Part shown: positions 1-11,940 of the stretch, piece by piece
Position numbering within the stretch: position 1 is the first letter of the stretch
Layout: every line of letters starts with the position of its first letter
Origin: Agathobaculum massiliense
GTDB taxonomy: Bacteria > Bacillota > Clostridia > Oscillospirales > Butyricicoccaceae
Assembly: GCF_900291975.1 (NCBI RefSeq)
Contig: NZ_OMPN01000001.1
Coordinates: 2,418,001-2,482,000, forward strand
Direction: 5' to 3'
Length of the DNA: 64,000 bases
Program-made: the position numbers and the translations under genes
Notes under the pieces: generated by a model
The model's input: the letters and a program-made list of their open reading frames with translations, nothing else
Databases searched by the model: none
What the model was told of the DNA's origin: nothing

Positions 1-129
1 CAGCAGCGGGAAGCGCCCGTTGCAGGGGGCGAACGAGTTGGTGAGCATGGCGATCAGACGCTCGCGCGGGGAGTCGATGATGCGGCAGCCGACAACGCCG
101 CAGGCGTTGCATCCAAACCCCATGCACAT
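1..129 (-). pseudogene. feoB: feoB C-terminal part (partial, cut off by island and by window edge)
   Basis: Read on the minus strand, this stretch encodes the second conserved core of the ferrous-iron transporter FeoB. It begins [15 protein letters not shown] and continues through [11 protein letters not shown] to [10 protein letters not shown]. The MGFGCN motif and the RERL...CNGRFP block belong to the membrane Gate/core domain. There is no usable upstream FeoB sequence here: the frame leaves homology at position 133, where the island begins. The N-terminal half lies at 10388-11566 on the same strand, and the two halves join in frame through the shared 10-mer. The gene continues beyond position 1, so its C-terminus is unseen. 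As it stands this half has no known translation start and is probably not expressed. Recognition of the family is firm; expression status is inference. Confidence 0.9.
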
Positions 130-151
130 GCTTGGGGAAAAAGTGGATGCG
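119..151. repeat. attL: feoB half-site plus island half-site
   Basis: The left junction holds the feoB-derived flank (CCCAT), the shared 10-mer GCACATGCTT (124-133) and the island arm GGAAAAAGTGGATGCG (136-151). The arm is the inverted partner of the arm at 10431-10446, with one mismatch. In large serine integrase systems attL and attR each pair one bacterial and one element half-site, and this is the pattern seen. The crossover dinucleotide is not determined; the centre of the reconstructed palindrome falls within the 10-mer. Confidence 0.8.
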
Positions 152-401
152 AACTTTTTGTTCGTTTTTTTATATAGTGAAAAGGAGGAGCTTGACTCAC
201 TCCGGCAGGAAAAAGGCAGTCCGCCACAAGCTCAAGCGCCAGCATGCACGGCATCGAGCGTTATTTTGGGGAAAAGAGGCGGAGAAAGTGCGGGAAATGC
301 TGTGTTTGCCGCGGAAAACCGTAATCAGGAAGGTGTTATATACATATTATAGATATGTAAGAACCTGTACGAGTAAAAGGATGCAAAAAGGAGGTATGCG
401 C

Positions 402-512
402 ATGACTGACTCCAAGCCCAAAGCGCGTCCGGCACAGCACAGCAGTACCTTACTGGAGTTGCTGGAGAACGTGATCGCCGCACAATTTGAAATGGAGAAA
501 ACAGCTACATAA
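402..512 (+). CDS. small protein of unknown function upstream of the recombinase
   Basis: A 36-residue reading frame starts at ATG 402, seven bases after a strong ribosome binding site (AAAAGGAGG, 386-394), and ends 46 bases before the recombinase start. The protein begins MTDSKPKARP and has a hydrophobic stretch, TLLELLENVIAAQFEM, that could form one amphipathic helix. The same frame is open further upstream, and a TTG at 192 after AAAGGAGGAG could give a longer, very basic 106-residue version. I do not recognise the family. Its position directly before the recombinase in the same direction suggests a role in element control, for example as a directionality or regulatory factor, but nothing in the sequence proves this. 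Confidence 0.45.
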   Translation: MTDSKPKARPAQHSSTLLELLENVIAAQFEMEKTAT

Positions 513-558
513 GCGGTCGTGACCGTTCGCAGGCGGAAAACGAAGGGAGGAGGCTCGC

Positions 559-2181
559 TTGCATGATCGTATTGCCGCCAACCGGGCGGTACTATATCTG
601 CGGCTGAGCCGCGATGACGCCAACCGGGGTGAGAGCGAGAGCATCCATAACCAGCGTGCCCTGCTGCGGGAGTATGCCGCACGGCAAGGCTTCTCTATGG
701 CGGACGAGTATGTAGACGACGGGTGGCCGGGGACGAACTTCGACCGCCCTCGCTTTCAGGACATGCTGCGCGATATGGAGCAGCACCGGTTCGACATCGT
801 GCTGGTCAAGGACCTGTCCCGCTTGGGGCGCGATTATATCCAGATCGGACGATATATAGAGCTGGTGTTCCCAGAACACGGCGTGCGTCTGATCGCGGTC
901 AATGACGGGCTCGATACCGCGCGGGCGGATACCGATATGGCGCCGTTCCGCAATGTTGTCAATGAGATGTATGCGCGCGATACCAGCCGGAAAATCCGCA
1001 GCGCCTTGCGCGCGAAAATGCAGGAAGGGAAATTCGTCGGGAATTTCGCACCCTATGGGTATCAAAAAGACCCCAGGGATAAAAACCATCTGATTCCGGA
1101 CGGGTATGCGGCGCAGATCGTGCGGCAGATCTTTATTTGGGCGGCGGCGGGCTCCCGTCCGGCGGAGATCGCGCGGAGGCTGGGTGAGCGCGGGGAACCG
1201 CCGCCCGCATTATACCGCTGCCAGGCGCATCCTGAGCTGAATCCGGACTGCTACTCAAAGCACAAGGAATGGACTGCGGGCGGTGTCAGCCGGATCCTGC
1301 GGGATACGGTCTATCTGGGCTGTATCGTGCAGGGGAAGACGGATAAGATCAGCTTCAAGAGTAAGAAAACGCGGGAAAAGCAGCCGGAGGAATGGATCGT
1401 TGTACCGGAACGGCATGAGCCGCTGGTCTCGGTGCAGACCTTTGAGACGGTACAGCACCAGCGCGCGTCCCGCCGCTGTGGCCGGAAAGGGACGTTTGAA
1501 AATCTCTTTTCGGGCCTGGCGTTTTGTATGGACTGCGGCAAGGCCATGTCCACGGTCGGTACGCGGAAAAAGGGTTCGGCCGCGAATCTGGCCTGCGGCG
1601 CATACAAGCTGCACGGCACATCGGCCTGCTCTAATCATTTTATCGCGTATGAGAGCCTGTATCGCTGCGTGCTGGAGGCGGTGCGCCGGTATGCCTGTCT
1701 GTCCGAGAAGGAATGCGACGACCTGTTTGAACGCCTGAACCGCCGCCTGCGGTTGGCCGAGCGGGAACAGGAAGCCGGACGCGAGCGGGAGTGGCTGGAT
1801 CAGGAACTGGCCCGTATGCAGCGCCTGGTCGCACAGCTTTATGAGGATCGTTCAGCGGGCAGGATAGGAGGGACAAATTTCTATCCGCTGCTCGAAAGAT
1901 ACGAACAGAAAACGGCCCAGCTGCAAAAACAGCGCGATGCGTTGCAGCCGGATGCCGGAGATGCGGGCCTGTGGCAGCAGCAGGAGCATCTGCGCGCCCT
2001 GATCCGCCAGTATAAGGATATCGACGAGTTGACGCCGCCGTTGCTCTTTGAACTGATCGGGCGGATCGAAGTAGGGCAAGGTACATACGAAAAAACAGAA
2101 AGGGGTAGGGCCAAACGGCAGAAGCTCTCGATCTCTTTCCGTTTTCTGCCCGAGCCCTGTGAAGTGGAATGGATTGAATAA
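559..2181 (+). CDS. large serine site-specific recombinase (TndX/TnpX-like)
   Basis: The 540-residue protein is the likely integrase/excisionase of the island in feoB. The N-terminal catalytic domain carries YLRLSRDD with the presumed nucleophile Ser17, then the arginine-rich KDLSRLGRDY motif (about residues 87-96). A recombinase DNA-binding domain follows (GKFVGNFAPYGY, then the WTAGGVSRILRDTVYLG block). Next come a zinc beta-ribbon (FCMDCGKAMS...LACGAY...SACSNH, about residues 320-360), a charged coiled-coil region (about 390-450) and a DUF4368-like C-terminus. This order and size fit large serine recombinases of clostridial mobile elements. The start is TTG after AGGGAGGAGG; the nearby ATG at 563 is out of frame. 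Such enzymes cut short att sites and exchange strands through a Ser-DNA link. Its position next to attL supports the att assignment. Confidence 0.93.
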   Translation: MHDRIAANRAVLYLRLSRDDANRGESESIHNQRALLREYAARQGFSMADEYVDDGWPGTNFDRPRFQDMLRDMEQHRFDIVLVKDLSRLGRDYIQIGRYIELVFPEHGVRLIAVNDGLDTARADTDMAPFRNVVNEMYARDTSRKIRSALRAKMQEGKFVGNFAPYGYQKDPRDKNHLIPDGYAAQIVRQIFIWAAAGSRPAEIARRLGERGEPPPALYRCQAHPELNPDCYSKHKEWTAGGVSRILRDTVYLGCIVQGKTDKISFKSKKTREKQPEEWIVVPERHEPLVSVQTFETVQHQRASRRCGRKGTFENLFSGLAFCMDCGKAMSTVGTRKKGSAANLACGAYKLHGTSACSNHFIAYESLYRCVLEAVRRYACLSEKECDDLFERLNRRLRLAEREQEAGREREWLDQELARMQRLVAQLYEDRSAGRIGGTNFYPLLERYEQKTAQLQKQRDALQPDAGDAGLWQQQEHLRALIRQYKDIDELTPPLLFELIGRIEVGQGTYEKTERGRAKRQKLSISFRFLPEPCEVEWIE

Positions 2182-2241
2182 GCGGGGCATGCCGATGAAG
2201 ATCGGATGCGTCCCGCTTTCTATTGAATCGGGGATACGCAA

Positions 2242-2274
2242 AACGGGCGTCCGGCTCAACGCCGGACGCCCGTT
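2242..2274 (-). terminator. terminator after the purine permease gene
   Basis: AACGGGCGTCCGGC and GCCGGACGCCCGTT form a 14-bp stem with a 5-base loop. On the minus strand it is followed by TTTGCG, and it lies 17 bases beyond the permease stop codon. It may also stop read-through from the recombinase side. Confidence 0.75.
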
Positions 2275-2290
2275 CCATTTCCCGAATGTA

Positions 2291-3652
2291 TCAGAGGAAA
2301 ATATATTTGAGGATAAACAGGACCGCCAGTACATACATCAGCGGCGCGACCTTTTTCCCCTTGCCGGCCGCCAGGTTGAGCAGCACATAGGAGATAATGC
2401 CCATGGAGATGCCCTCGGAGATGCTGTAGAACAGCGGCATCGAAAGAATGGCGAGGTAAGCCGGAATGGCATCGGTCAGGTTGTCCAGATCGAAGCGGAT
2501 TTCCGTCACCGTGCCAACCATCAGGAAGCCGACCATGATGAGCGCGGGCGCGGTGGCGAACGAGGGGATCGCGGTGAAAATCGGCGCGAACAGGGTGGAT
2601 ACCAGGAACAGGCCGGCGGTGACGAGGGCGGTCAGGCCGGTACGGCCGCCGACCGCAACGCCGGAGGCGGATTCGACGAACGTCGTCGTGGTCGAGGTGC
2701 CGAGCACCGCGCCGGCGGAGGTCGCAATTGCGTCGGACAGCAGGGCGGGCTTGATGCGGGGCAGCTTACCATCCTTATCCAGCATATCCGCCTTGGTGGC
2801 AACGCCGATCAGCGTACCCAGGGTATCGAAGATATCTACAAACAGGAACGAGAAGATCACAACGATAAAATTGATGATGCCGACCGTGCTGAAGTCCACG
2901 TTGAAGCACTGGCCGAACGTCAGGCCGAGCTTGGTGAAATCGGTCATGCCAAACGCGGGGAACAGGGAGTAGAAGCCCGCTTCCGCGTCTGGAACATACA
3001 GGCCGACCCCCTGACAGGCCATGCCAATGATCCAGGTCAGCAGGATGCCGAACAGGATAGCGCCCTTGACCTGATGGATATACAGCACGGCGGTGATAAA
3101 CAGGCCGACCAGCGCGAGCAGCGCGCAGATGCCAGCGGTATGGAAGTTATCCGTAAAGCTGGTGATGGTAACGAGCGTGGAGGAATCCACGGACAGCCCC
3201 GCGTTCTGTAGGCCGATAAAGGCGATGAACAGGCCGATGCCCACGGAAACGCCGCGTTTGAGCGTCAGCGGGATCGCATTGAAGATCGCCTCGCGCACAT
3301 TGGTCAGCGAGAGGACGACAAAGATCAGACCCTCGACAAAGACGGCGAGCAGCGCGACCTGCCAGCTGTAGCCGTAACCGGCGACGACCGTATACGCCAT
3401 AAAAGCGTTCAAGCCCATGCCGGCGGACAGGGCAAACGGCAGGTTGGCCATCAGCGCCATGCACACCGTGCCGATGAACGAAGCCAGCGCGGTAGCGAGC
3501 AGGACGGCGGTCGGGTCCATGCCGGTCGAACCGAGAATGCTTGGATTGACCGCGAGGATATACGCCATGGTCATAAACGTGGTGACGCCGGCCATGACCT
3601 CGGTCCGGACGGTGGTCTTATTATCGGACAGCTTGAATACTCTTTCCAACAT
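2291..3652 (-). CDS. NCS2-family purine (adenine/guanine/hypoxanthine) permease, AzgA/PbuG-like
   Basis: A 453-residue inner-membrane transporter that brings nucleobases in by proton symport. The start MLERVFKLSDNKTTVRTEVMAG and the block TTFMTMAYILAVNP are typical of the AzgA/PbuG branch of NCS2. About a dozen hydrophobic segments are visible, along with the conserved segment LLSDAIATSAGAVLGTST and a VESASGVAVGGRTGLTA motif. The length is normal for the family. It lies 40 bases downstream of apt on the same strand, so import and phosphoribosylation of purines are probably one operon. No purine riboswitch is visible upstream. The exact base transported cannot be read from sequence. It is cargo of the serine-recombinase island. 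Confidence 0.9.
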   Translation of the reverse strand: MLERVFKLSDNKTTVRTEVMAGVTTFMTMAYILAVNPSILGSTGMDPTAVLLATALASFIGTVCMALMANLPFALSAGMGLNAFMAYTVVAGYGYSWQVALLAVFVEGLIFVVLSLTNVREAIFNAIPLTLKRGVSVGIGLFIAFIGLQNAGLSVDSSTLVTITSFTDNFHTAGICALLALVGLFITAVLYIHQVKGAILFGILLTWIIGMACQGVGLYVPDAEAGFYSLFPAFGMTDFTKLGLTFGQCFNVDFSTVGIINFIVVIFSFLFVDIFDTLGTLIGVATKADMLDKDGKLPRIKPALLSDAIATSAGAVLGTSTTTTFVESASGVAVGGRTGLTALVTAGLFLVSTLFAPIFTAIPSFATAPALIMVGFLMVGTVTEIRFDLDNLTDAIPAYLAILSMPLFYSISEGISMGIISYVLLNLAAGKGKKVAPLMYVLAVLFILKYIFL

Positions 3653-3692
3653 TTTGTTTTTCAGCCCCTTTTCTTTCTCTGGTTTCCCTTTC

Positions 3693-4217
3693 TTATTTGC
3701 CGTCGTAGGATACGACGGTCGCCAGCGGATAGTCTTTCAGACGGTCGCGCCCATGCAGGCCCTTCAGCTCCAGCAGGCAGACGATCTTGACGACCTTTGC
3801 GCCGAGCTGCTCCAACAGATGCGCCGCCGCCTCCAGCGTGCCGCCGGTCGCGATCAGGTCGTCGATCAGGACGACACGCATGCCGGGCTTGATATCGTCC
3901 TTATGGACCTCGATTGTGGCGGTGCCGTACTCTAGGCTGTAGGTCGCCCCGACTGTCTCGCGGGGCAGCTTGCCCTCCTTGCGGATGGGGATGAACGGCT
4001 TGTGCAGTTTGTACGCGATCGGCATACCGAACAGGAAGCCGCGGGATTCCAGACCCGCGACCACATCGAACGGCTCCCCCTCGAGCAGCGCGGCCATCTC
4101 GTCGACCGAAAGCTGCAGACCGTCCGCGCTGCCGATGGCGGTGGTGATGTCGCGGAAGATCACGCCCGGTTCGGGAAAATCCGGAATGCTGGTGATATAC
4201 GGTTCTATTTTGCTCAT
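3693..4217 (-). CDS. apt: adenine phosphoribosyltransferase
   Basis: This cytoplasmic salvage enzyme makes AMP from adenine and PRPP. The 174-residue protein starts MSKIEPYITSIPDFPEPGV and contains the typical FPEPGVIFRDIT block. It also has GLESRGFLFG, RKEGKLP, and the PRPP-binding motif VVLIDDLIATGGT (about residues 118-130). An in-frame extension to 4307 exists, but the ATG at 4217 has a strong site (AAAGAAGGAGGAAGC) in front and matches the family start. Length is typical. It is the first gene of a two-gene unit with the purine permease, which supplies the substrate. A promoter-like pair lies at 4329-4356. Confidence 0.95.
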   Translation of the reverse strand: MSKIEPYITSIPDFPEPGVIFRDITTAIGSADGLQLSVDEMAALLEGEPFDVVAGLESRGFLFGMPIAYKLHKPFIPIRKEGKLPRETVGATYSLEYGTATIEVHKDDIKPGMRVVLIDDLIATGGTLEAAAHLLEQLGAKVVKIVCLLELKGLHGRDRLKDYPLATVVSYDGK

Positions 4218-4328
4218 GCTTCCTCCTTCTTTGGTGCGGGCGGTGCGGCCCGCGGTTTTTGTGGCTGGTTTCCCCCTGTCTGCGGCGGACGCGCGCCCGA
4301 ATGCCACGACCGCGCCGCATACAAATTA

Positions 4329-4356
4329 ATTGTAACAAATCTTTCGCACTTTACAA
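4329..4356 (-). promoter_or_regulatory. putative promoter of apt and the purine permease
   Basis: On the minus strand TTGTAA (4351-4356) and TACAAT (4329-4334) are separated by 16 bases, about 110 bases ahead of the apt start. The leader between them and apt shows no recognisable purine aptamer. Confidence 0.5.
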
Positions 4357-4481
4357 GAGCTTTATTTGCCGAAATACGACAAGATATCCGTTTTTATTTT
4401 TATATGTCAGATTGGGCGGCAGGGGTTGCACAGCGTATGGTTTGTCAGACACATTTTGATTTGATATAATATGTATCAAGT

Positions 4482-5288
4482 CTAATCTGCAATCTTAATC
4501 AGAACCTGCGTCATGTATTCTTTTTCGTTGGCAATCATATAGTCTGTAAGCTCGCGCTCAAAGGAATATCCTGTAAGCTGTAGATTGTGTTCGTTGGCAT
4601 AATTTAGCATTTTTTTATATAATTCAGGAAGTCTGTCCCATCCACCTTTTAGATAGCCGCACAGATACGCTCCCTTTGGCCTTATCATAAAACCGCTTTG
4701 CTTTTTATGTTCCATTATCACCGTATATAAGCCGTCATATTTGTCAAATTGTCCCTCCTGAAGCTTATATAGAGAGATATAGCTCCCTACGCCTGAGCGA
4801 TACTGTTCTGGCGGCCAGATACTTTGAACATATGTAAAGACTTTGATAAGGTTATCCTCCTCAAATTCATAAGGGACGGTCAACAGATATTCTTTTTTCA
4901 GATAAACTATTTCTATATGGATATCGCTGATTTGCTGGCAAAGTAAAAGATGTTCTTTTTTCTGGCTTAGAACAGACTTGACCGCTTTCAGCTTTCGGAT
5001 TTCCGCATCAATTTCCCGTTGCTTGACAGAAACAATTTCAAGGAATTTCTGTTCGTCAAAGGAATGGATAAATGCTTTGATCTCCGCAATGCTCAGATTG
5101 AGTTCTTTCAGCATACGGATATATTCAAAATCTATGCTCTGTGAATAGTCATAATATCGATATCCGTTCTCCCCCTTGTAGCGTGGAGAAAACAAACCGA
5201 TATAATCGTAATAATGCAACGTCCTTTTATTGACATTGTGTAATTCTGCGAACTGTGCGGTTGTAAGCCGTATGGTTTTATTTTCCAT
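4482..5288 (-). CDS. MerR-family regulator with GyrI-like effector-binding domain
   Basis: A 268-residue transcription factor. The N-terminal winged helix reads LTTAQFAELHNVNKRTLHYYDYIGLFSP and then GYRYYDYSQ, the canonical MerR signature. A dimerisation helix rich in K/E/R covers about residues 75-115. The C-terminal part (about 120-268, ending near KEYMTQVLIKIAD) resembles the BmrR/TipA-type GyrI-like ligand domain. Members of this branch bind small hydrophobic molecules and over-twist promoters with 19-bp spacers. Such a promoter (5300-5330) lies between this gene and the divergent GNAT gene, so the GNAT is the likely target. The region is visibly more AT-rich than its neighbours, suggesting separate acquisition within the island. 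Confidence 0.88.
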   Translation of the reverse strand: MENKTIRLTTAQFAELHNVNKRTLHYYDYIGLFSPRYKGENGYRYYDYSQSIDFEYIRMLKELNLSIAEIKAFIHSFDEQKFLEIVSVKQREIDAEIRKLKAVKSVLSQKKEHLLLCQQISDIHIEIVYLKKEYLLTVPYEFEEDNLIKVFTYVQSIWPPEQYRSGVGSYISLYKLQEGQFDKYDGLYTVIMEHKKQSGFMIRPKGAYLCGYLKGGWDRLPELYKKMLNYANEHNLQLTGYSFERELTDYMIANEKEYMTQVLIKIAD

Positions 5289-5299
5289 AAATTACCTCG

Positions 5300-5330
5300 T
5301 TGACATTACACTTACTGTATAGTTTATGAT
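5300..5330 (+). promoter_or_regulatory. MerR-type promoter with 19-bp spacer driving the GNAT gene
   Basis: TTGACA (5300-5305) and TATGAT (5325-5330) are separated by 19 bases, longer than the normal 17, which is the hallmark of MerR-activated promoters. The spacer contains TACACTTACTGTA, a short dyad where the regulator would sit. It faces the acetyltransferase at 5376. Confidence 0.65.
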
Positions 5331-5375
5331 AAGTATATGCCAAATGAAAGCAAAAGGAAAGGGGTTTGACCGGAT

Positions 5376-6002
5376 ATGGAAAATAACATAAAATTAAGAG
5401 AGTTAAAGAAAGAAGATGTACCAGCATTGGAAGATGTGATAAGAAAAACATGGAATTATGACAGATTTGCAACCCCAAAGACAGCTCGTAAGCTTGCAAA
5501 AGTCTATCTTGCAACCTGTTTGACAAATCAGACCTATACGCGAGTTGCGGAAGTCAACGGTGTTCCTGTGGGACTGATTTTGGGAAAGGATATAGAAAAA
5601 CATCACTGTCCGCCGAAATATCGCCTGCGCCAAATATCCGCATTATGCGGATTGCTGATTTCTAAAGAGGGGCGTGAAATACTGAATTTCTATAAGAATG
5701 TGGACGATATAGACAACCGGCTCTTAAGACAGTGCAGCAAAGACTATAAAGGGGAGCTTGCCCTGTTTGCCCTGTCCCCCGAATACAGAGGGCTTGGGAT
5801 CGGGAAAATGCTGTTCCGCTGTTTATTAGCCTATATGGAAAGCCGGAGTATTAGCGATTTCTATCTTTATACCGATACAAGCTGTAATTTCGGATTTTAT
5901 GAGCATCAGGGCATGGTACGCCAACAGCAGTACAAACACCTTGTCCATATGAAAGGACAAAAAGGCGAATTGGAATTTTATCTTTATGACATGGCGGTAT
6001 AA
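5376..6002 (+). CDS. GNAT-family N-acetyltransferase
   Basis: The 208-residue protein has the GNAT fold signature. An N-terminal strand reads IKLRELKKEDVPALEDVI. The acetyl-CoA pyrophosphate loop is SPEYRGLGIGKMLFRCLL (about residues 132-149). The C-terminal part SDFYLYTDTSCNFGFYEHQGM resembles motif B. It probably acetylates a small molecule, possibly the inducer sensed by the divergent MerR protein; the acceptor is unknown. The start is ATG 5376 after AAAGGAAAGGGG. Base composition matches the AT-rich MerR gene rather than the rest of the island, so the two form a unit. Confidence 0.87.
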   Translation: MENNIKLRELKKEDVPALEDVIRKTWNYDRFATPKTARKLAKVYLATCLTNQTYTRVAEVNGVPVGLILGKDIEKHHCPPKYRLRQISALCGLLISKEGREILNFYKNVDDIDNRLLRQCSKDYKGELALFALSPEYRGLGIGKMLFRCLLAYMESRSISDFYLYTDTSCNFGFYEHQGMVRQQQYKHLVHMKGQKGELEFYLYDMAV

Positions 6003-6091
6003 AATCATAAATTTTGATTTTACCTGAATTTATTTGCTTTCGAAAAGGTTAGCATAAATAAAAAACGAAACAGAGAAAAGGGACGACGGAT

Positions 6092-6754
6092 ATGGATAAG
6101 AAAACAGGCGGTGCAAGGGCGTATATGGGGATACTGCTGTCCGGCGTTTTGGCCGGCATGATGATCTCGGTTGGCGGGACGGTATATTTATCGGTGGACA
6201 GCAAGGTGGTCGGCGCTTCGCTGTTCAGCATCGGATTGTTTTTTGTGGTTTCCATGCGGCTGTGGCTGTATACCGGCAAGATCGGGTATCTGTTCCGCGG
6301 CGGACACGGCTATGCCGCGAAGCTGCTGCTGACGCTTGCGGGAAATTTTGCGGGCGCATTCGGCACAGCGCTGCTGCTTCGGCAGACGCGCGCAGCGGCA
6401 AATCTGGTTGGACGCGCGGCTGAGCTGAGTGCGGTAAAGCTGCAGGACGAGCCGGTCAGCGTTTTTATCCTAGCGGTGTTCTGCGGCGTGCTGATGTACA
6501 TTGGCGTGAATGGGTTTGGCGTTTTTGAGCTTGCACTGGGCAAATACGCTGCGGTATTTTTGGCCGTTGCAGTGTTCATCCTTTCCGGCTTTGAGCACTG
6601 TGTTGCCAATATGTTTTATTATTCGCTGGCCGGCGTGTGGGACAGCGGGCAGGCGTGGCTGTCCATGGCGGTCATGGTACTGGGTAATTCGGCAGGTTCG
6701 GTCGTTGTGGCGGAGGGATACCGCGCCGCACAGAAGCTGCAGGACGCGGCATAA
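6092..6754 (+). CDS. formate/nitrite transporter (FNT) family channel
   Basis: A 220-residue membrane protein with six hydrophobic segments, the FNT number. They start near residues 11, 40, 75, 122, 150 and 190. The FNT signature appears as GFEHCVANMFYYSLAG, and a G-N motif (VLGNSAGSVVVAEGY) sits in the last segment. FNT channels are pentamers that pass formate, nitrite, hydrosulfide or other small anions across the inner membrane. The protein is shorter than the usual 250-285 residues but appears complete, with short termini. No pyruvate-formate lyase or nitrite reductase gene is next to it, so the anion is unknown. A terminator follows at 6773-6812. Confidence 0.85.
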   Translation: MDKKTGGARAYMGILLSGVLAGMMISVGGTVYLSVDSKVVGASLFSIGLFFVVSMRLWLYTGKIGYLFRGGHGYAAKLLLTLAGNFAGAFGTALLLRQTRAAANLVGRAAELSAVKLQDEPVSVFILAVFCGVLMYIGVNGFGVFELALGKYAAVFLAVAVFILSGFEHCVANMFYYSLAGVWDSGQAWLSMAVMVLGNSAGSVVVAEGYRAAQKLQDAA

Positions 6755-6772
6755 CTCCACATAATAACACGA

Positions 6773-6812
6773 AAAAGCGCTTCGACACGCAGGGACCGTG
6801 CCGGAGCGCTTT
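6773..6812 (+). terminator. terminator after the FNT gene
   Basis: AAAAAGCGCTTCGACACG and GTGCCGGAGCGCTTTT form a long stem, with imperfect pairing in the middle, ending in a T run. Confidence 0.75.
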
Positions 6813-7061
6813 TAAGGATACTATATAGCAGGCCGGCCGTTTTTATAGGACGGAATCGGGACATTGCGGATTGTTTCGAGCGTGTATCAGACGAATAAGT
6901 AGGTATAATCACAGTAAGGCTTAAAGCACAAGCCTTGATCGCGATAGTTATAGATAAACTTTTTCAGCATAAATTTGCAGAGCATAGCACGCGGTTCAAC
7001 GGCTCTTGCGAAGGCTTAGCGAACATTTTAAGCGTGCTTAACATTGCCGCGCGGACAGGAA
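6813..7061. other. intergenic stretch without a recognisable gene
   Basis: Between the two convergent terminators I see no open frame with a ribosome binding site and no known RNA. The long plus-strand frame that starts here is the complement of the ilvD-like gene. The stretch is moderately AT-rich and may be remnant sequence inside the island. Confidence 0.5.
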
Positions 7062-7092
7062 AACCGCCTGCGGCTGGTCGCCGCAGGCGGTT
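7062..7092 (-). terminator. terminator after the IlvD/Edd dehydratase gene
   Basis: AACCGCCTGCGGC and GCCGCAGGCGGTT form a 13-bp stem with a 5-base loop, followed by TTTCC on the minus strand. It lies 19 bases past the stop codon. Confidence 0.8.
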
Positions 7093-7111
7093 GGGAAAGC
7101 CTGTTTGCGCG

Positions 7112-8827
7112 TTATTTCATGTAACCGCCCTGCATGGGGGATACCGCGTGCTCGGAGAAGATCTTGAGCACGCCGGAGGTGTATTTCGCCGGCTTCGGCT
7201 GCCACTTGGCGCGGCGCGTGGCCAGGATTGCCTCCATTTCGGCGGGCGTTTTTTCCTCGCCGTTCACACCGACGATCGCAAGCACGCGCGCGGGGATATC
7301 GATGCGGATAAGGTCGCCCTCCTCGACCAGCGCGATCGGGCCGCCGCTGGCCGCCTCGGGCGAAACGTGGCCGATGGACGGGCCGGTGGACGCGCCGGAG
7401 AAGCGTCCGTCCGTGATCAGGGCGATCGAGCGACCAAGCTCCTTGTCGGACGAAATCGCCTCCGAGGTGTAGAACATTTCAGGCATGCCGGAGCCCTTGG
7501 GGCCTTCGTAGCGGATGAACACCGCGTCTCCGGGCTGGATTTTGTGGGTCAGGACCGCGTCGATCGCCTCTTCCTCGCTGTCGAATGGGCGGGCGCGCAG
7601 CGTCGCCTGGAACATCTCCTTGGGGCAGGCCGTATGCTTGATGACCGCCCCTTCGGGCGCGAGGTTGCCCTTAAGAATCGCGATCGCGCCGTCCGTGCCG
7701 ATCGCCTTGTCAAATGGGCGAATAACGTCGTCGCGGGTCACGCCGTGCGCGGCGCAGTATTCGTCGCACTTGTCATAGAAGCCGTTGGCGCGCAGCTCTT
7801 CCAGGTTTTCGCCCAGCGTTTTGCCGGTGACGGTCATCGCGTCGAGGTGCAGCATGGACTTGATCTCCTCCATGATGCGCGGCACGCCGCCCGCGTAATA
7901 GAAATACTGCGCCGGCCACTTGCCCGCCGGACGGATATCGAGCAGATAATGCGCGCCGCGGTGCATGCGGTCAAACAGCTCGGCATCCAGCTCGATGCCG
8001 AACTCATGCGCAATCGCAGGCATATGGATGAGCGAGTTGGTGGAGCCGGAGATCGCCGCATGCACCATGATGGCGTTCTCGAACGACTCGCGCGTGACGA
8101 TATCGCGCGGCTTGAGACCGGCTTGCGCAAGACGCATGACCTGCTCGCCCGCGCGGCGCGCAACGTCGCGCAGGTCCTCGCAGGTGGCGGGCATGAGCGC
8201 CGAACCGGGCAGCATCAGGCCGAGCGCCTCGCCCATGACCTGCATGGTGGAGGCGGTACCCATGAACGAGCACGCGCCGCAGGAGGGGCAGGCGTGCTGC
8301 TTGTAATAGGTGAGCTGTTCCTCGGTGATCTCGCCGCGCTGGCACATGGCGCTGTATTTGCCGATCTGTTCGAGCGTCAGCAGGTCGGGACCCGCGTCCA
8401 TGACGCCGCCCGTGACCAGGATGGAAGGCATATTGACGCGGCCGATCCCCATCAGGTGCGCGGGTACCGCCTTGTCACAGGAGGCCACAAAAATACCGCC
8501 GTCAAACGGCGTCGCGCCCGCGTGTATCTCGATCATGCTGCAGATCGTGTCACGCGAGGCGAGCGAATAGTTGATGCCGTCATGCCCCTGCGCCATACCG
8601 TCGCAGATATCCGTGGCAAAATAGCGGGCGGGCTGGCCGCCCGCCTGCTTGACGCCATCCGCCGCGCGGTCAACCAGCTCAAGCAGATGAGCGCTGCCCG
8701 GGTGGCTGTCGCCGAATGTGCTCTCGATCATGATCTGGGGCTTGGACAGATCCTCCACCGTCCAGCCCATGCCCATGCGCAGCGGGTCCTGCTCCGGCGC
8801 GAGCTTGCGAATCTCCTGACTTATCAT
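7112..8827 (-). CDS. IlvD/Edd-family dehydratase (dihydroxy-acid or sugar-acid dehydratase)
   Basis: A 571-residue Fe-S enzyme that removes water from 2,3-dihydroxy acids. The cluster-binding cysteines lie in ICDGMAQGH, FVASCDKAVPAH and CPSCGACSFMGTASTMQ. Other family motifs are GLMLPGSA, ISGSTNSLIH, GPKGSGMPEMF and ALITDGRFSGASTG. In the amino-acid pathway the product feeds valine and isoleucine. However, no ilv biosynthesis genes are nearby, and a divergent FadR-type regulator (9086-9802) adjoins it. That arrangement is more typical of aldonic or uronic acid breakdown, so a sugar-acid dehydratase is a serious alternative. Promoter and a palindromic operator lie at 8890-8940. It is cargo of the feoB island. 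Confidence 0.9.
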   Translation of the reverse strand: MISQEIRKLAPEQDPLRMGMGWTVEDLSKPQIMIESTFGDSHPGSAHLLELVDRAADGVKQAGGQPARYFATDICDGMAQGHDGINYSLASRDTICSMIEIHAGATPFDGGIFVASCDKAVPAHLMGIGRVNMPSILVTGGVMDAGPDLLTLEQIGKYSAMCQRGEITEEQLTYYKQHACPSCGACSFMGTASTMQVMGEALGLMLPGSALMPATCEDLRDVARRAGEQVMRLAQAGLKPRDIVTRESFENAIMVHAAISGSTNSLIHMPAIAHEFGIELDAELFDRMHRGAHYLLDIRPAGKWPAQYFYYAGGVPRIMEEIKSMLHLDAMTVTGKTLGENLEELRANGFYDKCDEYCAAHGVTRDDVIRPFDKAIGTDGAIAILKGNLAPEGAVIKHTACPKEMFQATLRARPFDSEEEAIDAVLTHKIQPGDAVFIRYEGPKGSGMPEMFYTSEAISSDKELGRSIALITDGRFSGASTGPSIGHVSPEAASGGPIALVEEGDLIRIDIPARVLAIVGVNGEEKTPAEMEAILATRRAKWQPKPAKYTSGVLKIFSEHAVSPMQGGYMK

Positions 8828-8889
8828 ACCAGTTCCGCTCCTTTTCTCTCAAACGTGTTTTGCCTGATTGTTTTACGCACCCATCAAAT

Positions 8890-8940
8890 TCATCTGATGA
8901 CTTTAAGCTTATTATAGACGCTTCCAGTAGGACAAGTCAA
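8890..8940 (-). promoter_or_regulatory. promoter and likely FadR-type operator of the dehydratase gene
   Basis: On the minus strand TTGACT (8935-8940) and TATAAT (8911-8916) are 18 bases apart. Just downstream, TCATCTGATGA (8890-8900) is a perfect 11-bp palindrome around one central base. Part of the same motif, ATCTGATGAT, recurs at 8998-9007 ahead of the regulator gene. Two copies flanking a divergent regulator fit autoregulation plus control of the dehydratase. Confidence 0.6.
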
Positions 8941-9085
8941 TAATAAAACAAAAAATCGGGAAAATAACACAAACAAAAAATAAAGAAGATGGAATATATC
9001 TGATGATTTGGGGAGGAAATGCTGGGAAGTGCTTGCGCGCGCCGGTTGGTTGGGATACAATAGAGACAGGAAAGGAGGCGGCACC

Positions 9086-9802
9086 ATGGCGGAGGATAAC
9101 CGGTCGCTGGCCGGCCAGACAGCGGACGCGCTGATCGCATATATCGTGGACAGAGGGCTGGAGCAGGGGGACCGGCTGCCCAACGAAAGGGAACTGTCCG
9201 GCCTGCTGGGAGTGGGGCGCAGCACGCTGCGGGAAGCGGTGCGCATGCTGTCCTCGCGCAATATCCTGGAGGCGCGGCAGGGGGCGGGGGTGTTCGTCAG
9301 CGGGAACACCGGCGTATCGGACGATCCGCTGGGCTTCACTTTTATCCGTGATAAACAGAAGCTGGCTGCCGACTTGGTGGAGTTCCGCATGATGCTCGAG
9401 CCCCGTGTTGCCGCGTTGGCCGCGCTGCGCGCTACCCCCGCGCAGGCGGACGAGCTGGCCGCGCTGGCGCTGGCCGTCGAGCAGCGGTATGCTGCCGGCG
9501 CGCGGCACACGCAGGAGGACGCCGCGTTCCATGCCAAGCTCGGCGAGCTGAGCGGCAATGTGGTGATTCCGAATCTGGAGCCGATCATTCTGGGGGCGAT
9601 CGATCTGTTTATCGACCTGACGGACGCACGCCTGAAGGAAGAAACGATCAGCTCGCATCGTGCCATCGTGGAGGCTGTCCGTGCAAACGACCCGATTGCC
9701 GCAGAGGATGCAATGACGCTGCACCTGGTCTATAACCGGAACCGCCTGCGCGGGCTGCTGGCACGGGATGGGCAAACAGGGGATACAAAAGAGCGGCGGT
9801 AA
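9086..9802 (+). CDS. GntR-family regulator, FadR subfamily
   Basis: A 238-residue repressor-type protein. The N-terminal winged helix reads LIAYIVDRGLEQGDRLPNERELSGLLGVGRSTLREAVRML, followed by the wing LEARQGAGVFV. The C-terminal helical FCD domain (about residues 85-225) holds candidate ligand-metal residues in VEFRMMLEPRVAALA and in the histidines of AAFHAKLGELSG and SSHRAIVEA. FCD proteins commonly bind metabolites of sugar-acid or organic-acid routes. The start is ATG 9086 behind AAAGGAGG, not the longer frame. It is divergent from the IlvD/Edd gene, which it probably controls. Promoter: TTGCGC (9033) and TACAAT (9056) with a 17-base spacer. Confidence 0.9.
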   Translation: MAEDNRSLAGQTADALIAYIVDRGLEQGDRLPNERELSGLLGVGRSTLREAVRMLSSRNILEARQGAGVFVSGNTGVSDDPLGFTFIRDKQKLAADLVEFRMMLEPRVAALAALRATPAQADELAALALAVEQRYAAGARHTQEDAAFHAKLGELSGNVVIPNLEPIILGAIDLFIDLTDARLKEETISSHRAIVEAVRANDPIAAEDAMTLHLVYNRNRLRGLLARDGQTGDTKERR

Positions 9803-9821
9803 GTTTTTACCGCCGCTCTTT
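9788..9821. terminator. bidirectional terminator between the regulator and the phosphatase gene
   Basis: AAAGAGCGGCGGTAA and TTACCGCCGCTCTTT form a 15-bp stem around a 4-base loop, between convergent genes. It overlaps the end of the regulator coding sequence. Confidence 0.85.
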
Positions 9822-9838
9822 GGCTGGCGTGGGTGTGG

Positions 9839-10309
9839 TTATAGAGGTCCCGTCTGCGCGCTGAAGCATGTCTGGAGCAGGGCGGTGCAGCCGGCTGTGA
9901 TATCCAGCCAGGTCTGCTCAAAGTCGCGGGTGTACCAGGGATCGGCAACATCGCGGGGCTGGGCGGTGAAATCAAGCAGCAGGCACAGTTTATGGTCAGG
10001 ATCGCTGCCGCAGATGCGGCGCATCGCCTCGAGGTTGCGGCGGTCCATGCCGATCAGAAGGTCGTAGGTCTGGTAGTCCGCCGCCTGCAGCAGGCGGGCG
10101 GTTTTTCCGTCACATCGTATCCCGTGCTCGGCCAGCTTGCGGCGCGCTAGCGGGTAGACGGGATTGCCGAGCTCCTCCGCACTCACAGCGGCGGAAGCGA
10201 CTTGCGCGCAGCCGGACAGGCCGGCGCGCTGCAGCAGGTCGTTCATTACGAACTCGGCCATGGGGCTGCGGCAGATATTGCCGTGGCACACGAATAATAT
10301 TTTTGTCAT
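9839..10309 (-). CDS. low-molecular-weight protein-tyrosine phosphatase
   Basis: A 156-residue cytoplasmic phosphatase. The P-loop VCHGNICRSPMAE near the N-terminus has the CX5R(S) motif with Cys8 as nucleophile. The general-acid aspartate lies in DVADPWYTRDF (about residues 120-130). Length and layout match the family. In bacteria these enzymes dephosphorylate tyrosine kinases of exopolysaccharide systems, proteins or small phosphoesters; no kinase gene is near, so the substrate is open. It is the last gene before the right end of the island and has its own promoter just inside attR. Confidence 0.93.
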   Translation of the reverse strand: MTKILFVCHGNICRSPMAEFVMNDLLQRAGLSGCAQVASAAVSAEELGNPVYPLARRKLAEHGIRCDGKTARLLQAADYQTYDLLIGMDRRNLEAMRRICGSDPDHKLCLLLDFTAQPRDVADPWYTRDFEQTWLDITAGCTALLQTCFSAQTGPL

Positions 10310-10390
10310 TCTTTATAACTCCTGAGATCTGATTAAAGGCCTTGAACCTCTTTGTTAAGTGCAGATATTGCTAACTTTTTGTTATAATCA

Positions 10391-10419
10391 AATATACGCG
10401 ATGGCGCCGCGCCTGTCAA
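10391..10419 (-). promoter_or_regulatory. promoter for the phosphatase gene, adjacent to attR
   Basis: On the minus strand TTGACA (10414-10419) and TATATT (10391-10396) are exactly 17 bases apart. The promoter lies only 12 bases inside the island arm at 10431-10446, so it belongs to the island and moves with it. Confidence 0.7.
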
Positions 10420-10430
10420 GCGGCTGCGGC

Positions 10431-10460
10431 CGCATACACTTTTTCCATAAGCACATGCTT
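10431..10460. repeat. attR: island half-site plus feoB half-site
   Basis: CGCATACACTTTTTCC (10431-10446) is the inverted partner of the left island arm at 136-151. ATAA and then the shared GCACATGCTT (10451-10460) follow, after which feoB sequence resumes with AGGCTTTGC. In the excised circle the two arms would flank 16 bases, giving a near-palindromic attP centred in the 10-mer. Confidence 0.8.
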
Positions 10461-11562
10461 AGGCTTTGCTTGCCGCAGGCGTGCGCCCGCTGGAACGCAT
10501 GGTCGAGCTGGAAGGCCACGCGCGGCAGATAGCCGGCATCCTCCAGCAGCGTGAACAATGGGAAGAAGATCGCCATGGGCGGCAGCATGACAGATACGAC
10601 GGTCGCCAGCACGCGCCATACGCCATCGGCCAGCATGGAAACAACAAAGGGAGGAAGCCCGAGCGCGGACAAGCCGGCCGCGATCGGCGCGGTCAGGCCC
10701 AGCAGGTGCGTGCCGAGCCATTCGCTTGGCACATTTGCGCCGAACAGGGTGATATAAAAGACCAGGGCGAGCAGGAGGAGCATGAGCGGGATTCCCAGGC
10801 GGCGGCTCATCAGGATGCGGTCGAGCTGCCGGTCGCGGGCGCAGGCAGCCTCCGGTACCTGGACACAGGTGAGGGCGATCTCCTCCGCGCGCAGCGCGGC
10901 CGCGGCGGTTACCATGTCGTCGAATTGCTGTCCGGTCAGGCCGCCGGGCGGGTGCAGCGCGAGCGTGGCAAGCGCTTCGCCGCGTGTACCGCCCACCCGC
11001 TGCAGCGCGTTTTCGATCACATCCGGATAGCGGATCGCAGCGACCGGACCGGACGAATCGTTTTCCAGCACGCAGCATACCGCCTGCGTGAGCTGCGGCA
11101 GGCCGCGTCCGCGCCGCGCAGCGCAGGGGACGACTGGAATGCCCAGCTCGCGCTGCAGGGCTTCGGTGTTGATTCGGATACGCTTTTTGCGCGCTTCATC
11201 CATCAGATTGAGGCAGAGTACGGCGTTCGGCATGACCTCGAGTACCTGCAGGACCAAAATCAGATTGCGTTCCAGGCAGGTCGCGTCCGCAACAAGGATG
11301 GCTGCGTCCGCATCGCCGGAGGCGAGGAAATCGCGGGCAACGCGCTCCTCAGAGGAGCGGGCGCGCAGGGAATAAGTACCGGGCAGGTCGACCAGCGTCA
11401 GGCCTGTATCGCCGCAGCGCATCACGCCGTATGCGTTTGCAACGGTTTTGCCGCTCCAGTTCCCAGTGTGCTGGCGGCTGCCGGTGAGCGCGTTGAACAC
11501 CGTCGATTTGCCTACGTTCGGGTTGCCGGCCAGCGCGACCACCGGCGCTCCGGTGCGCTGCC

Positions 11563-11808
11563 TCAAGGGACCACCCCGACTTCGATCTGTGCGGCGTCGC
11601 TTTTCCGCAGGGCGATGACCGCGCCGCGGATCAGGTAGGCGGTGGGATCACCCGCGGCGGCGCGCTGTATGCAGGTCACCCGCGTCCCGTCAACCAGGCC
11701 GAGATCCTGCAGGCGGCGGCGCATTCCGCCCGAGAGGTGTAACGTGCGCACGCGCGCGCCCATCCCTTCCGGCAGGTCGGGCAGCGGGAAAAAGGTTTCA
11801 TGGTTCAT
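11563..11808 (-). CDS. feoA: FeoA-like ferrous iron transport accessory protein
   Basis: An 81-residue SH3-like protein that works with FeoB at the inner face of the membrane. It shows the FeoA pattern GMGARVRTLHLSGGMRRRLQDLGLVDGTRVTCIQ and ends IRGAVIALRKSDAAQIEV. Its stop overlaps the feoB start, so the two are translationally coupled. The partner is currently split by the serine-recombinase island, so this gene may be expressed without a working channel. I do not see a convincing Fur or IdeR site upstream. Confidence 0.93.
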   Translation of the reverse strand: MNHETFFPLPDLPEGMGARVRTLHLSGGMRRRLQDLGLVDGTRVTCIQRAAAGDPTAYLIRGAVIALRKSDAAQIEVGVVP

Positions 11809-11940
11809 GCTATCATTCCCTATTTAGGATTTGGCCGCGCTTTCCGCAGGGAAAGGGCGGTTACTTCATGCTATGCGGCGGGGGGGCGGCGTGACATCCG
11901 GAGCGCGGCAAAACCCCGCGCCGCAGCGGAGCGCAAAAAA

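Follow-up and report, generated by a model that had tools for sequence, protein, structure and literature searches.

The skin element in sigK of Bacillus subtilis and Clostridioides difficile and SPbeta in spsM are excised during sporulation by large serine recombinases (LSRs), which rebuilds the host gene. Here, we liken to them, from its sequence, a 10.3-kb island with one LSR, which splits feoB3, a paralogue of feoB, in Agathobaculum massiliense. The analyzed window is a stretch of 64,000 nucleotides (nt) of contig NZ_OMPN01000001.1 (positions 2,418,001 to 2,482,000), which is part of a two-contig, 3.2-Mb genome (GCF_900291975.1, hereafter G000), and all coordinates below refer to this window. 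While skin and SPbeta are prophages or prophage-like, the host gene of the feoB3 island is that of an iron transporter. A similar organization is described for gin (PMC5595907), which splits the sporulation gene gerE of Bacillus cereus ATCC10987, carries serine recombinases but no phage genes, has a short direct repeat at its ends, and restores the gene on excision. However, gin has three recombinases in 28.6 kb, where the feoB3 island has one LSR, and the latter also differs in its host gene, its ordinary chromosomal cargo, and its long conservation over the genus. The yin element (PMC10747680) is also located inside a sporulation gene, yabG of Clostridium botulinum, and is found integrated or as an excised circle depending on the growth phase, but it is prophage-like, comes from one isolate, and occupies a different gene. 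The gin report (PMC5595907) also mentions the staphylococcal cassette chromosome (SCC). SCC resembles the feoB3 island in being LSR-borne and in occupying a single fixed site in a gene while its cargo varies. No report of a feoB-intervening element was found in the literature searches made on feoB with serine recombinases, intervening elements or sporulation in the mother cell. The data presented below suggest that the island is probably a skin-like sporulation gene-intervening element in feoB3, which would be excised in the mother cell.

Both halves of feoB3 lie on the minus strand, one at each end of the island. The C-terminal half, 277 amino acids (aa) long, runs leftward from position 129 (1..129 in the window, continuing outside it at L009:9296-10129) and is 84% identical to the intact copy of a relative (G011). 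The N-terminal half (10460..11566) contains the G domain and presumably, as we assume from FeoB in general, the first membrane part. Two copies of the sequence GCACATGCTT, at 124..133 on the C side and 10451..10460 on the N side, stand 10,327 bases apart at the junctions. Just inside them are the inner arms of the attachment (att) site, at 134..151 and, as an inverted copy, at 10431..10450, with 15 of 16 bases matching between 136-151 and 10431-10446; the extended pair 109-151 and 10431-10473 (43 nt, 77%) was the longest of 69 inverted repeats reported in window positions 1-10700. When the flanks were joined by a script, a 648-codon frame was obtained (647 aa and a stop) with zero internal stops. 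A sequence-only reading of this window had described the split gene, the 10-base overlap with its 15/16 arms, the hybrid att half-sites of a serine-recombinase island, and the restoration of feoB by precise removal, and on all of these points it agrees with our data.

The comparison of species showed that the att core common to them is approximately CATGTGC (7 nt), while the remaining matching bases are feoB codons that are alike by coincidence. The pairwise identity in the 20-base arm was 0.82-0.84 on the C side (15 genomes) and 0.80-0.82 on the N side (14 genomes), and further in it fell to 0.24-0.39 and 0.26-0.30, respectively. The two arms are near-symmetric, because their inverted match averaged 18.1 of 24 bases over 14 genomes (weakest in G024, 13/24) versus 5.9 in controls (maximum 13). 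A direct-repeat core with flanking att arms, a position inside a gene, and a frame restored by precise removal are features of sporulation gene-intervening elements, as is a serine recombinase encoded in the element itself. The LSR (559..2181, plus strand) has Resolvase, Recombinase, Zn-ribbon, and DUF4368 domains according to Pfam, and the nearest sequences in the PDB were TnpX and the SPbeta recombinase. The serine recombinase has 32 matches within the single 3.2-Mb genome of this strain.

The split is widespread in the genus. The feoB3 gene was found in 23 of 25 genus genomes, with no close match in G006 and G016, and it was split at the same codon in 18 of the 23. The remaining five (G001, G011, G013, G018, and G021) have the intact feoB that the earlier reading had proposed to look for in relatives, with open frames of 625-729 aa. 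Both halves were on one contig in 10 of the 18 split genomes, although in G017 the C-half is represented there by its first 87 residues only, and the inserts measured 3.6 to 34.6 kb; the other split copies were separated by contig ends, and in G007 the N-half was not found. The recurrence of this split in further assemblies of the genus makes chance an unlikely explanation, and likewise an assembly error, which was rejected. All 18 split genomes have an LSR, either inside the insert or on a contig carrying one of the halves, except that in G007 and G015 it is on another contig. Full-length orthologues of the window LSR (63%-81% identity) were found in 14 of the 24 other genomes, and together with G000 all 15 have a split feoB3. 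No full-length LSR above 39% identity was found in the five intact genomes, where shorter matches went up to 51% identity in G001 (150 residues, at the end of a contig) and 41% in G011 (352 residues). Among the best 80 loci of a scan of named genomes, 13 records reached at least 62% LSR identity, 12 from Agathobaculum and one (L171, a record of G023) from Butyricicoccus; we take Agathobaculum and these relatives to be gut butyrate producers. In G003, G004, and G012 different LSRs, about 25% identical and with inverted arms of their own, are inserted at the same feoB3 codon, which these unrelated recombinases reached independently. In G023 (L132, contig C20) the C-half is broken again, with about 12.7 kb separating residues 1-41 from residues 37-269, and another LSR (24%) is nearby.

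To evaluate the interrupted gene, we compared the regions upstream of feoA-feoB3. The gene at 11563..11808 (minus strand), taken to be feoA, has homologues upstream of feoB3 in relatives, and it is preceded by a sigma-K-type promoter, AC-N15-CATAGCAT (11868..11892, minus strand). Of 21 genus genomes, 19 have the pattern AC-N14..18-CATANNNT ahead of feoA (shuffled mean 0.30, maximum 2, 200 rounds), and all 21 have CATANNNT by itself. The full pattern did not occur in the control regions from other feoB genes, of which 10 were usable (291-450 nt); they run back at most 450 nt from feoB, so that a promoter further off would escape. These controls came from 13 loci and 12 regions, two of which were useless (3 and 39 nt), and CATANNNT alone occurred in 3 of the 12. 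In distant Clostridia the pattern was found in 16 of 20 genomes (shuffled mean 1.44, maximum 5), including one (L401) in which feoA was not found and the start of feoB was used instead, while the sigma-E form was found in 2 of 20. The distribution of feoB3 also follows that of a sporulation gene. Among 391 genomes sampled from the class, feoB3 was found in 172 (E 1e-60 or better) and SpoIVA in 278; SpoIVA was present in 162 of the 172 feoB3 carriers versus 116 of the 219 others (odds ratio 14.4, Fisher P 3e-21, kinship not corrected). Ten genomes had feoB3 without SpoIVA, seven of them at 74%-91% completeness.

These observations are consistent with data from other species. In a C. difficile study the sigma-E and sigma-K promoters share a similar -10 element and have ATA or AC, respectively, at -35, and the feoA-feoB pair CD1518-CD1517 belongs to the sigma-K regulon, with expression 0.05-fold in a sigK mutant (PMC3789822). 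A Moorella spore-protein table includes a FeoB, with CD1517 as its counterpart (PMC8745062), and feoA and a feoB of C. acetobutylicum are placed in a transitional expression cluster (PMC2530871). The promoter, the co-occurrence with SpoIVA, and the C. difficile regulon place the interrupted gene, on this sequence evidence, in the sporulation programme, and feoB3 looks like a mother-cell sporulation gene, seemingly used only during spore making.

The sigma factors themselves were also searched for. In G000 the sigK-like protein scored 261.9, above the NCBI cut-off of 252, but 254.5 against a stricter model with a cut-off of 298.65; the sigE-like protein similarly passed one cut-off (357.7 versus 339) and failed another (343.6 versus 348.6). 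In other genomes of the genus sigK is itself broken or shortened. In G020 (L427, L428) it is cut after approximately residue 90 of the query, with the remainder on another contig, and in G005 (L429) and G014 (L431) it is interrupted or shortened; in all three an LSR lies directly beside it, and the breaks fall at two or more positions overall. The sigK match also ended early in G009 and G021, with no LSR within the fetched stretch, and in G010 the front part alone was found, at a contig end. The loci in G020, G005, and G014 are apparent skin-like elements in Agathobaculum, and they support the view that elements of this kind often settle in mother-cell genes in this genus.

The recombinase operon could be under similar control. 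All 13 genus copies examined, of the 15, have a small open reading frame (ORF) ahead of the LSR (36-38 aa in 12, 53 aa in one), with the start picked for the best ribosome-binding site. The alignments of promoters exclude the G023 genome, and the LSR-upstream set also excludes G015, which is at a contig start. In the window it encodes 36 aa (..LLELLENVIAAQFE..; 402..512, plus strand) and is a candidate directionality factor or leader. Upstream of it is a sigma-E/K-type -10 element, CATATTAT (343..350, plus strand), and CATANNNT was found 34-59 bases ahead of the small ORF in 12 of the 13 copies (shuffled mean 2.0, maximum 7). Outside the genus CATANNNT occurred within 330 bases upstream in 7 of 8 feoB3-linked LSR loci, and in 2 of 5 loci with unrelated LSRs, a length at which chance matches are frequent.

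An alternative explanation is a selfish integrative cassette, similar to SCC, which targets and disrupts feoB3, with the halves looking intact as the insertions are recent or polymorphic in each species. SCC differs from the feoB3 island in that it is not known to split a gene that needs rebuilding. Such a cassette would agree with the range of insert sizes among species, with the unrelated LSRs at the same codon, and with the alternation of intact and split species in the tree. Quick trees of LSR and FeoB agree on the main clade, but the LSR of G005 groups apart from its feoB (in the FeoB tree the intact G021 is sister to G005), the LSR orientation is reversed in G005, G010, and G002, and some pairs of LSRs are closer than their feoB. 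On the other hand, the divergence of the LSR overall equals that of feoB (Mantel r 0.82, n 14, P 0.0002; median distance ratio 1.11), which suggests that the recombinase has been tied to this site for roughly the time since these species separated, or that it has seldom moved. The aligned split halves are free of stops, and the ratio of nonsynonymous to synonymous changes was 0.154 for the N-half (15 genomes) and 0.129 for the C-half (16 genomes), compared to 0.25 and 0.19 in the five intact genomes, in a set that excludes the divergent G023 and G004, whose FeoB protein is identical to that of G003. Judged by these ratios, the split halves are under purifying selection as strong as that on intact copies.

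The cargo also speaks against such a cassette. The LSR in the window is followed by a xanthine/uracil permease (2291..3652, minus strand) and an adenine phosphoribosyltransferase-like gene, apt (3693..4307, minus strand), which are conserved together. In 11 genomes the permease belongs to the island or shares a contig with the LSR, and the order LSR-permease-apt is kept in 10. The other genes assigned by Pfam are those of a MerR-family regulator (4482..5288, minus strand), a GNAT acetyltransferase (5376..6002, plus strand), a formate/nitrite transporter family protein (6092..6754, plus strand), an IlvD/Edd dehydratase (7112..8827, minus strand), a GntR-FCD regulator (9086..9802, plus strand), and a low-molecular-weight phosphotyrosine phosphatase (9839..10309, minus strand). 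In four genomes (G001, G002, G011, and G013) the permease lies elsewhere, adjoining apt, and in A. desmolans (G002, L246) permease, apt, and a formate/nitrite transporter (63%) stand together outside the island, so the window island seems to have absorbed a native chromosomal block. Other islands carry S-layer, chemotaxis-receptor, polysaccharide-deacetylase, ABC-exporter, glycosyltransferase, and amino-acid-metabolism genes. No phage structural, transfer or conjugation genes were named by Pfam among nine proteins of the window island and 20 ORFs of other islands, of which four had no family or were an LSR, and the larger islands were scanned in part. A selfish cassette is an unlikely explanation. 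A prophage was rejected, as there were no phage genes among the scanned ORFs and the best LSR among the 80 viral-contig loci retained was 39% identical; the exact 18-mer att palindrome was present in one viral contig, without the further arms, and was taken as chance.

The sequence-only reading had proposed that ferrous iron uptake is off while the island is present, as in a reversible switch resembling the developmental elements of other Firmicutes. The first claim is unsupported, because the same genome has two further feoB genes, which are uninterrupted (frames of 840 and 721 aa), and a phase switch of total iron uptake was rejected for this reason. The likeness to developmental elements is the part that became the best lead. 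In favor of a phase-variable switch of iron uptake in growing cells, LSR chemistry can be reversible and the arms are conserved, but the two other feoB genes and the sigma-K-type promoter of feoA-feoB3, which is absent from every usable control region taken from the remaining feoB genes, make it very improbable. Rather, the promoter and the co-occurrence with a spore-former gene suggest that the switch is likely specific to one cell type, the mother cell. It is hardly credible that FeoB3 functions as two polypeptides with the island as a fixed spacer. Both halves are conserved, and an in-frame ATG stands in the C-half where it meets the island, but no ribosome-binding site precedes this start (best 1-2 of 6 in the eight copies checked), and the two-polypeptide reading was rejected for this reason. 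Moreover, what is conserved in the DNA at the junction is the inverted att arms, and the recombinase is conserved too.

For a skin-like element in feoB3 the following sequence of events can be proposed. The island would have been inserted by its own LSR at a fixed codon of feoB3. In sporulation a mother-cell sigma factor would switch on the recombinase operon, and the recombinase would join the CATGTGC cores, free a 10.3-kb circle, and rebuild feoB3 in the mother cell only, while the germ line, which is the forespore and growing cells, would retain the island. An insert in feoB3 would then cost little and could hold ordinary cargo, for instance apt and the xanthine permease. Several points weigh against this explanation. 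We infer the excision in the mother cell from sequence, spore formation by Agathobaculum is an assumption, and the orthology of feoB3 to CD1517 is presumed. Three nearly complete genomes (G071, G130, and G141; 98%-99%) have feoB3 without SpoIVA. The first sigK model, with its cut-off of 252, also gives the sigE of G000 a score just above that limit (253.1), and no sigK match besides sigE was found in G016, G022, G023, and G024, so that sigma-K control cannot hold there as proposed, unless sigK was missed; yet feoB3 is split in both G022 (97% complete) and G023 (99%). The -35 region of the LSR operon fits the sigma-K form in 2 of 13 copies and the sigma-E form in 2 of 13. LSR distances correlate less closely with those of rpoB than with those of feoB (r 0.74, n 11), the value dropping to r 0.52 (n 9) when G023 and G002 are left out. 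In addition, the LSRs of G010 and G024 are closer than their feoB (ratio 0.59). These results could reflect some transfer of LSRs within the genus. Furthermore, the trees are quick ones with many weak branches, and related species are non-independent data points.

The association of such recombinases with feoB3 extends beyond the genus. Among 67 outside-genus loci from the best 80 of the named-genome scan (with L171 set aside), all six with an LSR of at least 43% identity adjoin a feoB3 half (L170 from Intestinimonas, L172 from Dielma, L173, L174, L175, and L194), while none of the 61 loci at 39% or less had a feoB match in the fetched flank. In the class sample, where part of the 172 feoB3 matches was covered and frames below 350 aa are not all splits, a split feoB3 with an LSR was read in at least five genomes (G083, G184, G197, G204, and G252), all of which have SpoIVA. 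The G197 locus looks the same as L194, and G083, whose fetched stretch does not include the N-half, and G204 carry an unrelated LSR type (25% and 23%). A short feoB3 frame in G232 looks like a frameshift and was not counted. In five further genomes (G073, G110, G290, G326, and G369), also not counted as splits, the contig breaks off no more than about 110 bases from the feoB3 junction, which could be an assembly break at a two-state site.

More broadly, feoB3 might be a general landing pad in spore-forming Clostridia, with the islands being germ-line-only DNA with ordinary genes, in Agathobaculum the permease and apt, that the mother cell discards, although we regard this wider proposal as tentative and somewhat doubtful. 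It would explain the repeated adoption of the same codon by unrelated recombinases, because feoB3 would be needed only in the doomed mother cell. If true, it would mean a division of the genome into soma and germ line in gut bacteria, fixed over a genus. To our knowledge, sporulation in gut commensals is little studied, and if feoB3 is rebuilt as proposed, programmed excision, described for regulators and genes of the spore surface, would in these bacteria also act on a metal transporter. The islands would then offer a genus-wide natural experiment on the gain, retention, and swapping of cargo by such elements, and a recombinase family with inferred attB and attP sites. They would also point to a role for ferrous iron import in the mother cell.

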